A stretch of 33,037 nucleotides of DNA, from the NCBI GenBank assembly GCA_031288975.1, contig JAITQK010000189.1, positions 1-33,037 on the forward strand, written 5' to 3'. The first letter of the stretch is position 1; the number at the start of each line of letters is the position of its first letter. Of the stretch, positions 15,396 through 20,063 are shown in pieces. The position numbers and the translations under genes were made by a program. Source of the stretch: Treponema sp. (GTDB lineage Bacteria > Spirochaetota > Spirochaetia > Treponematales > Breznakiellaceae). A model generated the notes under the pieces. That model was not told the origin of the DNA, ran no database searches, and saw only the letters and a program-made list of their open reading frames with translations.

Positions 15396-16604
15396 TTATA
15401 CGTCCCTGCCCCCACCAGCGACCTTTCCTGGGGCATCCTTGTTGAGGCCGTACTTGCTCCGGAGTATCGCAGGAACCTCAATATCATCATCCGCATAGGT
15501 ATTCCGAGAAGCAAGGAAGTCCGGGCGGGTGCTTGACCGTGCCCTGATGCGCTGCCATTCGTCATAGGGGATAAAATCGCCAGACTTCTCCACTATCGGT
15601 TCATGGACATGTCCGGGCTGAACCGTTTTTACCGGTTCACTATGAAACCCCGTGGCGATCACCGTTACCCGGAGCTGCTCGCCTAGACTTTGATCCAAAT
15701 ACACCCCTGAAATAATAACCGCATCAGGATCCGCTTTTGCGGTGATGATACTGACCACTTCTTGAAATTCCGCCAGGGAAAAATCATCCCCTCCTGAAAC
15801 GCTGACCAGGATACGGGTGGCCCCTTCAATAGAGGTATCTTCCAGCAGGGGATTGTCCATCGCGATGGATGCAGCCTCAGATGCACGGTTATCCCCTTTG
15901 CCGTACCCGATGCCCATGAGGGCATCCCCCTGCTCCCGCATGATGGTTTCGGCATCCTCTAAATCAATATTAATAAGCCCGGTCTGACTCACGAGATCCG
16001 AAATGCCCTGCACCCCCTGGCGCAGTACATCATCGGCCTTGAGAAAGGCTTCCGTAATCGGGGTTCTCCGTTCAACAATGTTGAGGAGATGCTGGTTCGG
16101 GATGATGATGAGGGTATCCACCGCACTCCGCAGTTTGACGATCCCCTCCTCGGCCATGCGCATCCTGAAACGGCCCTCAAACTCAAAGGGCTTGGTCACC
16201 ACCCCCACGGTAAGAGCGCCACATTCCTTGGCAACCTGGGCAATCACCGGGGCTGATCCGGTACCCGTACCGCCCCCCATGCCGGCGGTTACAAACACCA
16301 TGTTGGCGCCCTTGAGGGCTTCGAGGATCTGTTCCCGGTCTTCATTGGCGGCCTTTTCACCTACCTCGGGCTTTCCACCTGCTCCCCGGCCTCCGGTAAA
16401 TTTTGCCCCGATTTGCAGTTTCCGGTTTGCCTTGCATTTGTTCAGATCCTGCGCGTCGGTGTTGACTGCGATGAATTCAATCCCCTGTAAACCACATGCA
16501 ATCATACGGTTTATCGCATTGCATCCACCTCCACCAGTACCGATAACTTTGATAAGCGCCGGACCCGGAGCCATTACCTTGTCTTCAAGTACTTCGATAT
16601 TCAT
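15396..16604 (-). CDS. ftsZ: Cell division protein FtsZ
   Basis: A protein of 402 residues from the ATG at 16604, which has a strong GGGGAGGGG ribosome site. An upstream in-frame start at 16655 lacks one and adds non-conserved residues. This is the tubulin-like GTPase of the Z-ring. Motifs are [15 protein letters not shown] (about 20-34), AVNTDAQDL, the tubulin signature [13 protein letters not shown] (107-119), the T7-loop segment [12 protein letters not shown] and the C-terminal FtsA/ZipA-type peptide [15 protein letters not shown]. It follows ftsA after 161 bases, the largest gap in the division cluster, so it may have its own promoter. Confidence 0.97.
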
Positions 16605-16765
16605 AAAACCCCTCCCCATAAAATTGATATCAATACCATCAAGGGCATGCATCAACGGTCTCTATATAAAGGTATCCATAACCTATAGCATGACAGCATC
16701 TACAAAAAACATCTATAGATCTTTATGCCCTTTAAGCCCTAATACCCTTCATAGTATAAAAAAAA
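16605..16765. promoter_or_regulatory. ftsA-ftsZ intergenic region with short palindromes
   Basis: This is the only sizeable gap inside the division cluster. It holds two perfect 10-base palindromes, TTGATATCAA at 16624-16633 and ATCTATAGAT at 16711-16720. The rest is A/T-rich sequence, in which several weak -35/-10 pairs can be drawn for ftsZ, for example TTGATG, 17 bases, TGATAT. None is close to consensus. The region is a reasonable site for ftsZ-specific transcription or a repressor operator, but the sequence alone does not prove either. Confidence 0.35.
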
Positions 16766-18028
16766 CTAAAAAAATTCTGTTTTAATCCAATCCACGATCT
16801 TACTGAAAAGCATCGGCTGCTGTCGTTTCTCCCGGGAACGGGGTTCTCCTCCCCGTTCAAGACCGCTTCGCCGTTCCCGGTCATCCCCTTCCAAAACCAA
16901 GCCCACCGCAGTGGCGTATATGGGATTACGGTATTCTTCAACCAGACCACCGACCGAAAAAGGCGTCCCTATCCTGACCGGCACCTTAAACAGTGCTGAA
17001 GCCAAGTCAATGGCCCCTAAAAGCTGGGCGCCCCCTCCGGTTAATACGATGCCGCCCCCTAGGGGCCGGGAAAGGGAAACTTTATCCAGCTTTTCTTTCA
17101 CCATTTTAAATATCTCCTCTATACGAGGCTCAATAATCATGAATAGCTGGGATTTCGGTATGGACAGGGGCGGCCTCCCCCCAACCCCGGATACGATAAC
17201 ATCATCATCACCATCAAGTAGTCCTTCCCAACAGCACCCTGCGCTCACCTTAATCTGCTCTGCGGTTTCCAGGGAGATATTCTTGACCTTTGATATATCG
17301 CTGGTGATCATCCCCCCTCCGGCGGGAATGGTCGTGGTTGAATAGGGGCTTCCGTCAGAATACACCAATACATCCGTGGTTCCCCCTCCCATGTCAATCA
17401 GCGCAACCCCCAGTTCTTTTTCCTCATCCGTCAATACCGACCGTCCTGCGGCCAGGGACTGGAGCACCAGGTCATTCACCATGAACCCCGCCCGGTTCAC
17501 ACATTTTATCAGGTTCTGGGCGCTGTTCACCGAACAGGTAATGATGTGGACCTCCGCTTCGAGGCGAACGCCAATCATATCCAGGGGATCCCGGATGCTC
17601 CGCTGATCATCCACAATATAGTTCTGGGGAATAACCTCCAGGACTTGACGATCCATGGGGATCACCACAGCCCGGGCCGCTTCCAGGACCCGGCTTATAT
17701 CATCTTCCCCGATTTCCCGGGTCTCCCGGTTTTTTCCGGTAACTGCCACGACCCCCCGGGAATTGATCCCGTCGATATGATTCCCCCCAATGCCGGTCCA
17801 GCAGGTATGTACCTCCCGTCCGCTCATCATCTCCGCCGCTTCAACGGCAGTCGCAATCGACCGCAGTGTAGCTTCAATATTGACCACTACGCCCTTTCGC
17901 AGTCCGGTAGAAGGACATACCCCTACGCCGGTAATTTCGAGAATCCCATTTTCATTGCGCTCGCCGATTATGGCGCAGACTTTAGTCGTCCCTATATCGA
18001 GGCCGACAACTAATCCGTCATTAGCCAG
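16766..18028 (-). CDS. ftsA: Cell division protein FtsA (probable CTG start)
   Basis: A protein of 420 residues if started at CTG 18028, and the actin-like anchor of the Z-ring. The conserved phosphate-1 block (GLVVGLDIGTTKVCAIIGE) lies upstream of the first ATG/GTG/TTG codon in frame (GTG at 17887), so starting there would delete an essential part of the fold. The frame is closed upstream by the ftsQ stop, and the only plausible initiator between is CTG, six bases after an AAAGGAGG ribosome site. Other blocks are GVALIDMGGGTTDVLVYSDG, VLTGGGAQLLGAIDLAS and the amphipathic C-terminal membrane helix (LFSKIVDWIKTEFF). It starts 12 bases after ftsQ. Confidence 0.93.
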   Translation of the reverse strand: MANDGLVVGLDIGTTKVCAIIGERNENGILEITGVGVCPSTGLRKGVVVNIEATLRSIATAVEAAEMMSGREVHTCWTGIGGNHIDGINSRGVVAVTGKNRETREIGEDDISRVLEAARAVVIPMDRQVLEVIPQNYIVDDQRSIRDPLDMIGVRLEAEVHIITCSVNSAQNLIKCVNRAGFMVNDLVLQSLAAGRSVLTDEEKELGVALIDMGGGTTDVLVYSDGSPYSTTTIPAGGGMITSDISKVKNISLETAEQIKVSAGCCWEGLLDGDDDVIVSGVGGRPPLSIPKSQLFMIIEPRIEEIFKMVKEKLDKVSLSRPLGGGIVLTGGGAQLLGAIDLASALFKVPVRIGTPFSVGGLVEEYRNPIYATAVGLVLEGDDRERRSGLERGGEPRSREKRQQPMLFSKIVDWIKTEFF

Positions 18029-18040
18029 AGGATGCCTCCT

Positions 18041-18856
18041 TTAGAGTATAGTATATGATGCCATACCGGTCCTGAAATCAATTTCCTCAACTTGAATGCC
18101 GTTTGAAACACATACGTCAAGTATCAACAATACGTATCGAAGCATATCTTCATTTAACTCCATACCCACATGGACCCGTATCCGGTTATGAACAGGATAA
18201 AGGATCAAATCATAAGCGTCAAATGCTTTTCGATTAACTCGAATCTCCGATATAGCTACCAAAAGTTCCGGAGCGGAAGCGTGTATCGCTTCGAGATCAG
18301 CAAGCAAACCATTAAAAACCGGCGAAAGCCGCATCCCCAGGAAGGGCGGTTCATCAATAACCCCTGATATTATCGGCACCGATTGGAAGGAAGCCTGGCG
18401 CTGACCTTCAGTTCCTATCATAAAAACGAGTCCCTGGCGATCAAACCATACAGGGCAGAGCTTGCCCTGTATCAGGATAACGGACTGAGCTGCTGCAATA
18501 CGTCCTTGCAGGTTTATCTGTACCGAATTGGGGAAGTGTTTAATCACCTGGACAGACTCTATCTCATACAGGGTCCTGATGCCCCGTTCTGCCCGCTGGG
18601 GGTCTACAGTCAGATACGAGGACCGGGGGCCGATCCCCGCCTTTTCGAGGATCATAGCCTGGTTCACGTCTGGGATGCCCGTTATTTCTATCTTTGATAA
18701 GGGAAGCCCCGGTATGATGATCAAAAGCCACAGGAGTTCTCCACCGAGGAGGGCCATGATGATAACGATGAGCCATTTGACCGCCTTTTCTATCCCCGAT
18801 GAAACCACCGGTTCGACAGGCAGGATCTCCTCGGCGAAGATATGCTCATCGGACAT
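18041..18856 (-). CDS. ftsQ: Cell division protein FtsQ/DivIB
   Basis: A protein of 271 residues from ATG 18856 (MSDEHIFAEE), preceded by a GGAGGGG ribosome site and overlapping the ftsW end by 11 bases. A longer frame opening at 18964 would lie within ftsW and is less likely. A short cytoplasmic tail is followed by one membrane segment (VKWLIVIIMALLGGELLWLLIII). A POTRA-type domain (LSKIEITGIPDVNQAMILEKAGI) and the FtsQ beta domain (IKHFPNSVQINLQGRIAAA) complete it. FtsQ links early and late divisome parts through FtsL/FtsB in the periplasm. The sequence is divergent, and position strongly supports the call. Confidence 0.9.
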   Translation of the reverse strand: MSDEHIFAEEILPVEPVVSSGIEKAVKWLIVIIMALLGGELLWLLIIIPGLPLSKIEITGIPDVNQAMILEKAGIGPRSSYLTVDPQRAERGIRTLYEIESVQVIKHFPNSVQINLQGRIAAAQSVILIQGKLCPVWFDRQGLVFMIGTEGQRQASFQSVPIISGVIDEPPFLGMRLSPVFNGLLADLEAIHASAPELLVAISEIRVNRKAFDAYDLILYPVHNRIRVHVGMELNEDMLRYVLLILDVCVSNGIQVEEIDFRTGMASYTIL

Positions 18857-20063
18857 GGTGCCCCTCCGTATCCGCGGCGTACCACCCGTCTGATTTTTGA
18901 GGACCCATTCCCTTGCCCCAGACAAAGAACACGCTTTTCTGAGGAGACCGGGAGATATTGACAATGAAACCTGATGCCATCAAGGTTGTTACCAGGGAAG
19001 AACCGCCGGCAGAGAAGAAGGGCAGGGGAATTCCCGTGGGTGGGAGGTTTCCAGAGGTTACCGCGATGTTTAGCAGGGTCTGGGATACAATCATCGACAC
19101 GAGACCAAAGGCAAAAAGTCGACGGAAGGTATCTGTCGCCCTTATGGCCGCCCGGTACCCCCTGACCGCAAAAACCCCAAAGAGGACAAAAAACAGCAGG
19201 ACCCCTAAAAAGCCAAAGGCTTCGGCAAAAGCGGAAAAAATAAAATCCGAATGAATCTCCGGCACCGCCGCAATCTTTATGATATTCTGCCCCATCCCCT
19301 TGCCCCAGAATCCGCCGGAGGCTATGGTCATGACCGAAGCGCGGACCTGGTACCCCGCTCCGTGGGGTTCCCATGCAGGGTTCATAAAACTGAGGAGCCG
19401 CCGCCATCGGTGGGGTTCGATCAACACCAGAAGGGCTGAAAAGGGCACGAATATGACCAGGGCGCTTAAAAAATACCGTATCCGCACCCCGGCCAGAAAA
19501 AAGATAAAAACCCCATTCACCGCGATAAACATGGCGGTAGAAAAATTATTCTGCAGATAGATTAATACGATAAAGATAAGGGTAATAAAAAAAGGAGGCA
19601 AGATGCTTTTCGTCAGCGAATCGAGGTGATCCTGTTTTTTATCAAAAATATGGGCCAGATACAGGGGCAGGATCAACTTCACAAATTCCGAAGGCTGGAA
19701 TCCCGGAAGGGAACCGATACTAACCCAGCGGCTGGCCCCATTCTTCGTCATACCGAGCCCTGGAATGAGGGGCAGCACACACAAGAACATCCCCCCAAGG
19801 ACCAGCAGCATGGGGAACTTCCCTTTGCGTAACCAATCCAGGTTCATGCGAGATGCCAGCAAGAACAGGAGCATCCCCACAAAGGCCAGGAAGATCTGTT
19901 TTGAAATAAAATAGAGACCTCCCCCGTAGTCCCGTTCCGCGAAGGCATAGGAAGAGGAATACAAGGTGACAAGGCCGATGCCGGTCAGGAGGAAGATTGC
20001 GGCAGTAAGCACCTGATCCGTGTGGAACCGCCAGCTCGCCTTTTCAACGTTAAATTTATACAT
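18846..20063 (-). CDS. ftsW: Septal peptidoglycan glycosyltransferase FtsW
   Basis: A protein of 405 residues and a SEDS-family membrane glycosyltransferase that polymerises lipid II at the septum with a class B PBP. About ten membrane segments can be seen, starting with VLTAAIFLLTGIGLVTLYSSS. Family motifs include GASRWVSIGSLPGFQPSEFVKL, the Asp-bearing cytoplasmic and periplasmic loops, and the late signature LPPTGIPLPFFSAGGSSLVTT. No FtsI-type PBP gene lies beside it in this window. It starts one base after the mraY stop. Confidence 0.95.
   Translation of the reverse strand: MYKFNVEKASWRFHTDQVLTAAIFLLTGIGLVTLYSSSYAFAERDYGGGLYFISKQIFLAFVGMLLFLLASRMNLDWLRKGKFPMLLVLGGMFLCVLPLIPGLGMTKNGASRWVSIGSLPGFQPSEFVKLILPLYLAHIFDKKQDHLDSLTKSILPPFFITLIFIVLIYLQNNFSTAMFIAVNGVFIFFLAGVRIRYFLSALVIFVPFSALLVLIEPHRWRRLLSFMNPAWEPHGAGYQVRASVMTIASGGFWGKGMGQNIIKIAAVPEIHSDFIFSAFAEAFGFLGVLLFFVLFGVFAVRGYRAAIRATDTFRRLFAFGLVSMIVSQTLLNIAVTSGNLPPTGIPLPFFSAGGSSLVTTLMASGFIVNISRSPQKSVFFVWGKGMGPQKSDGWYAADTEGHHVR

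Follow-up and report, generated by a model that had tools for sequence, protein, structure and literature searches.

The ftsA start site

The window analysed here, a stretch of 33,037 nucleotides, holds a division-gene cluster from the assembly of a termite-gut Treponema-like spirochaete (genome G000, contig C110), in which ftsQ is followed by ftsA on the reverse strand (Table 1). A previous sequence-only reading had proposed that ftsA initiates at CTG 18028, six bases from a strong Shine-Dalgarno (SD) sequence, and that the phosphate-1 segment of the protein lies upstream of every in-frame ATG, GTG or TTG. Both the SD with its spacing and the position of the segment were confirmed. The first such codon downstream of the ftsQ stop is GTG 17887-17885, 47 codons past CTG 18028, and the other in-frame near-start codons up to 17887, five ATA, ATC or ATT and one CTG (17902), are all at or past the phosphate-1 motif. 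The mechanical list of open reading frames (ORFs) places the ftsA start at 17887, so that 47 residues are removed, as had been predicted for an automatic call. In the same list ftsZ begins at TTG 16655; its conserved start is ATG 16604 (window 16604-16655, reverse strand).

Table 1 Features of the ftsQ-ftsA junction and of ftsA in the window.
Feature	Position	Strand	Remarks
ftsQ, upstream partner, 3' end	18041..18859	-	start near 18859 judged by eye
ftsQ stop TAA	18041..18043	-	in the ftsA frame, overlaps the SD
SD AAGGAGG	18035..18041	-	six bases from CTG; A[AG]GG[AG]GG at the same place in 71/74 CTG genomes
Spacer CATCCT	18029..18034	-	variable in relatives, except that the last base is usually T
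CTG initiation codon	18026..18028	-	assigned from sequence; CTG in 74/88 sampled genomes of four families
ftsA	16766..18028	-	420 codons plus stop, CTG start; matches to TIGR01174 and to Pfam FtsA and SHS2_FTSA
Phosphate-1 segment GLDIGTTKV	17978..18004	-	lost with the GTG start
Internal GTG	17885..17887	-	mistaken start under ATG/GTG/TTG-only calling
ftsA stop TAG	16766-16768	-	from sequence

The product translated from CTG matched the NCBIfam ftsA profile TIGR01174 with 463.9 bits (cut-off 175.85 bits) over positions 1-370 of 371, and this full-length match identifies it as FtsA. Translation from GTG gave 401.3 bits over positions 44-370; the profile is thus matched from position 1 only with the CTG start, and the GTG start loses positions 1-43. 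An SHS2 (1C) domain is inserted in the actin fold, with PF02491 at residues 82-164 and PF14450 at residues 209-376, while the N-terminal phosphate-1 segment (18004-17978) is present only if translation begins at CTG. On inspection by eye, the C-terminal end (FSKIVDWIKTEFF) seems amphipathic; it is a putative membrane-targeting helix.

Distribution of the CTG start among relatives

The codon was compared in related genomes, a check that the sequence-only reading had suggested, and CTG was found to be kept. Among the best 80 of 152 confirmed loci in a protein-based set (L003-L082; the nearest fetched relative of the window is L003, with FtsA 98% identical), the codon aligned to residue 1 was CTG in 55, TTG in 6, ATG in 6 and GTG in 5, with seven further loci having a different codon but an NTG one or two codons off, and one locus being truncated. 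L082, ambiguous in that ATG is its next codon, was counted as CTG. A second sample comprised ftsA starts from 100 genomes of five families (f1-f5) of the order. CTG was found in 48/62 genomes of f1, 1/1 of f2, 12/12 of f4 and 13/13 of f5, giving 74/88 in these four families, and the 74 CTG genomes span 62 genera. In f3, which includes a 1.1-Mb genome taken here as a member of the T. pallidum group, none of 12 genomes had a CTG start; the tree bearing on whether this family lost CTG or never had it was built from 125 residues. Outside the order, 60 genomes were sampled, one or two per family, and CTG was absent from the 58 that were readable (TTG 24, ATG 22, GTG 12).

For these counts, each row was assigned as its start the NTG closest to where the start was expected. 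Six rows were set by eye (L104, L178, L184, L188, L194 and L211), including L188, in which CTG directly precedes ATG and which was entered by hand as ATG; L232, in which no motif was found, and L233, in which the wrong motif was picked up, were excluded. The count was repeated at a fixed codon position. Nine codons before LDIG, the 62 genomes of f1 had CTG in 47, TTG in 5, ATG in 3, GTG in 2 and another codon in 5, all five with an NTG nearby; eight codons before LDIG, CTG was present in 26/26 genomes of f2, f4 and f5. The position is therefore conserved as a start codon, CTG, TTG, ATG or GTG in 57/62 genomes of f1, and not as a leucine. On the tree of the 88 taxa, its first base required 9 parsimony steps, compared with 20-45 at 28 four-fold sites, and the third bases of four conserved leucine columns underwent 23-33 changes. 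Eight or so lineages have exchanged CTG for ATG, GTG or TTG. CTG is thus judged from these alignments to be the inherited and predominant ftsA start codon in all sampled families but f3, and CUG the ancestral-looking state of ftsA in the order.

The complete chromosome of Breznakiella homolactica (NZ_CP067089.2, L017) also has CTG, so that the codon is not the error of one metagenome assembly, and its recurrence in independent genomes excludes the sequencing error that had been raised as a possibility. In the window and in 31/74 CTG genomes (28 genera), no in-frame ATG, GTG or TTG occurs between the upstream stop and the LDIG/phosphate-1 motif, and no canonical start is compatible with the conserved N-terminus. 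In the remaining 43 an in-frame canonical codon is present, upstream of CTG in 25, between CTG and LDIG in 30 and at both places in 12; there, the SD position and kinship with the 31 unambiguous genomes favour the CTG start but do not prove it. One such relative (L089/L319, G011) has an ftsA frame open upstream with canonical codons, including an ATG 18 codons before CTG, and automatic ftsA calls in relatives of this kind could be too long. On frame geometry, profile match and conservation in relatives, ftsA of the window is assigned the proposed start at CTG 18028, a claim as good as comparative sequence allows.

Overlap of ftsQ and ftsA

In most relatives ftsQ, taken as the longest open frame, continues across the SD and initiation codon of ftsA in a different reading frame and typically ends 8 bases inside ftsA; counted from the first base of that codon, its stop is 5-8 bases downstream. 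The claim that the ftsQ stop closes the ftsA frame thus holds for the window but not for most relatives. The stop is at +5 in 26/26 genomes of f2, f4 and f5, and at +5 in 32 and +8 in 16 of the 61 readable genomes of f1; the upstream stop is therefore within reach of the downstream start, as in coupled pairs, in 26/26 and 48/61 genomes, respectively. In 44/58 readable genomes from outside the order, the ftsQ frame ends ahead of the ftsA start codon. The usual ftsQ tail is K-E-A-x-S-G-stop, coded AAG GAG GCN NNN TCT GGN and then the stop, so that K-E is read from the SD, and one ftsQ codon takes its middle base from the C of CTG and its last from the T. Across 69 genomes this codon specifies Ser in 57, Pro in 8, Ala in 3 and Thr in 1.

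Start codon and overlap go together. Leaving out f3, and with rows that are related by descent, CTG was present in 69/74 genomes with the overlap in that frame and in 5/14 without it, the exceptions being a changed codon despite the overlap (5/74) and a retained CTG despite its loss (5/14). Adding f3 gave a table of 69, 5, 7 and 19 (Fisher p 1.4e-10, the rows again being related by descent), and in an independent-pair test of codon against overlap only 1 pair on supported branches differed in start codon. Among the best 80 of 152 loci (L003-L082), in a count that partly repeats genomes of the 88-genome count, the overlap was found in 50/55 CTG loci and 5/22 non-CTG loci, with 3 skipped.

The window itself departs from this arrangement, its ftsQ stop being at -15 relative to the ftsA start. 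Compared with the same-genus loci L004 and L097, it carries five extra bases (CATATACGATAAAGGAGG vs CATATACTATACTCTAAAGGAGG), which shift ftsQ to the frame of ftsA, so that it runs at once into TAA and stops earlier. In the window, then, the overlap is lost and CTG is kept as a legacy, with the close spacing of stop and SD alone remaining. At 18041-18060 (reverse strand) the extra bases adjoin a TATAC repeat, and the usual ftsQ tail is absent.

Shine-Dalgarno strength and other possible determinants of initiation

The anti-SD binding energy of the CTG starts had a median of -11.6 kcal/mol (range -12.9 to -10.7, n=74), and medians for the other codons were -11.6 for GTG (n=16), -11.2 for TTG (n=34) and -7.8 kcal/mol for ATG (n=34). 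The SD is at an identical distance from the start in 71 of the 74 CTG genomes. The base immediately 5' of CTG is T in 62/74 and changed in 10 steps, compared with 20-23 at the free spacer bases -5 to -2. The energies fit compensation for weak codons. Such compensation is reported for prokaryotes generally in the accessible part of PMC5622118, so the SD trend alone is no sign of special regulation.

An initiator tRNA variant that loses discrimination against CUG in vitro is described in the accessible text of PMC11497404. An altered initiator tRNA as the reason for CUG tolerance was rejected: an ordinary initiator (pattern AGCTCGNNNNNCTCATNA) was present in 14/14 genomes, with a CAU anticodon and, in copies with a readable stem, the GGG/CCC stem. 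The copy of G195 was masked after the anticodon arm, and in the tRNA scan of B. homolactica the initiator was not among the best 30 of 48 tRNAs. Special decoding is thus neither needed nor seen, and the permissive variant, as far as it is described there, is not the reason. RNA folding around the ftsA start was no stronger than that of shuffled sequence (mean z -0.02) and gives no support to a role of RNA structure. A link to IF3 likewise found no support, as infC starts with TTG and not with AUU or CTG; TTG was the start in all 15 readable of 17 infC loci (L246 and others of L245-L259), that of the window's own genome included, and was usually preceded by a leader resembling GGAGGTCAG.

Starts at CTG seem to be uncommon in these genomes. 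Among 333 ORFs in 400 kb of B. homolactica, none had a convincing CTG start, the four SD-backed CTG codons all being 69-91 codons inside canonically started ORFs; a matching scan, over 400 kb of an f5 genome with 66% GC, placed ORFs on the wrong strands. Genome-wide, AAGGAGGN6CTG gave 31 hits in four genomes vs 36 for the reversed control, and in the 30 hits that were read ftsA alone occurred in all four genomes and alone opened more than 300 codons. A possible second CTG start was noticed in B. homolactica (L312:727-1503, reverse strand), where AAGGAGGTAGAAA precedes a 259-codon ORF that is polysaccharide deacetylase-like by eye and has its next in-frame TTG 18 codons on.

Proposed mechanism and alternative explanations

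The explanation that appears likely is SD-driven and probably ftsQ-coupled initiation at an inherited weak CTG, the C of which would be held in part by the overlap. The product from CTG 18028 would begin formyl-Met-Ala-Asn-Asp-Gly-Leu-Val-Val-Gly-Leu-Asp-Ile-Gly. The near-perfect SD six bases upstream is envisaged to keep the ribosome in place on a codon whose pairing with the initiator tRNA is poor, and ribosomes ending ftsQ would halt atop the ftsA SD and start codon and then re-initiate; ftsQ-terminating ribosomes and the strong SD together may thus make the weak CUG usable. Its place in the middle of the ftsQ Ser (or Pro, Ala or Thr) codon would be part of the reason why the C is kept. Counted against this explanation is that the link between overlap and codon is not independent of descent. 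CUG makes up 0.024% of bacterial start codons and yields about 0.86% of AUG expression in E. coli, according to the accessible text of PMC11497404, and this low output makes CUG in an essential gene surprising. It is conceivable, if speculative, that CUG works well only for ribosomes fresh from ftsQ, tying FtsA output to that of FtsQ; a stoichiometry lock would then be formed by the overlap, an SD of maximal strength and a start codon that is poor by design.

Among the alternatives, the one with the best claim, although doubtful, is that the ftsQ frame by itself, through the Ser codon in its tail, holds the C and that the unusual start codon itself has no function. The association of CTG with the overlap agrees with this, and the T before CTG is the first base of that ftsQ codon and favours Ser; however, this T could instead aid initiation, the encoded residue varies among Ser, Pro, Ala and Thr, and CTG persists without the overlap in five genomes, that of the window among them. 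The sequence-only reading had suggested that CTG may set a low FtsA:FtsZ ratio; selection of CTG for itself, to throttle FtsA far below FtsZ with SD strength tuned around the codon, seems unlikely. It would account for a C held over 62 CTG genera with so few changes relative to four-fold sites, and the SDs of lineages that start at ATG tend to be weaker, as though overall initiation were being kept constant. Yet the SDs are strongest at CTG starts, which runs counter to keeping output low, and CTG has been lost mostly where the ftsQ overlap was lost; the SD trend is also not specific, as AUG genes have weaker SDs in general in the accessible part of PMC5622118.

Neutral drift among tolerated NTG starts, already disfavoured, is very improbable: the eight or so replacements would suit it, but the first base is far more conserved than four-fold sites, ftsZ and ftsW in the same loci (from the best 80 of 152) start mostly with ATG (59/75 and 66/72, respectively), and CTG is absent outside the order. 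Hardly credible at all is a true start at GTG 17887, or a CTG produced by sequencing error. The GTG is the first ATG, GTG or TTG in the ftsA frame and the one that the ORF list picks, but with it the phosphate-1 motif and the first 43 profile positions are lost. In relatives, three adjoining Val columns of this region carry GTG in 49/83, 48/87 and 11/80, so the codon is not maintained as NTG; an error is opposed by the recurrence of CTG in independent genomes, among them a finished chromosome.

Significance and comparison with known systems

Non-canonical starts and overlapping coupled genes were already known; what is new, as read from the genomes, is an order-wide CUG start tied to the ftsQ/ftsA overlap. 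In the open-access literature searched, no earlier report of a CTG- or CUG-started ftsA in spirochaetes or with ftsQ coupling was found. With an essential gene that has stayed on CUG in 62 of the genera sampled, and an initiator tRNA of the ordinary kind, the order offers a natural system in which to study the bacterial use of CUG and the reasons for its usual avoidance. For annotation, gene callers limited to ATG, GTG and TTG would misplace the ftsA start, making the protein too short in genomes like that of the window and perhaps too long in those whose ftsA frame stays open farther upstream (a canonical codon upstream in 25/74).

E. coli infC starts with AUU and is autoregulated by IF3. It resembles ftsA of this order in being an essential gene with a conserved near-cognate start codon, and differs in the codon and in the IF3 autoregulation, the order's own infC starting with TTG. 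In Caulobacter, a CUG upstream of dnaA gave a toeprint, yet was shown to be unused in vivo (PMC8443254, in its accessible part); there too a cell-cycle gene is preceded by a CUG that has an SD, and the non-use of that CUG in vivo is a caution for ftsA. Weak start codons accompany strong SDs in prokaryotes, as they do here, according to the accessible part of PMC5622118, in which CUG genes are excluded from the SD analysis and only four switches to CUG are given (2 from 61,358 AUG, 1 from 5,080 GUG and 1 from 2,468 UUG); in the present order, CUG is instead the ancestral-looking state. For overlapping coupled pairs of E. coli, re-initiation by the 30S subunit with IF2 is described in the accessible part of PMC2268962. 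As in such operon pairs, the upstream stop in ftsQ/ftsA falls on the downstream SD and start region; unlike them, this putatively coupled pair, recognised from its sequence, has a CUG as the downstream start, in an arrangement kept across families.
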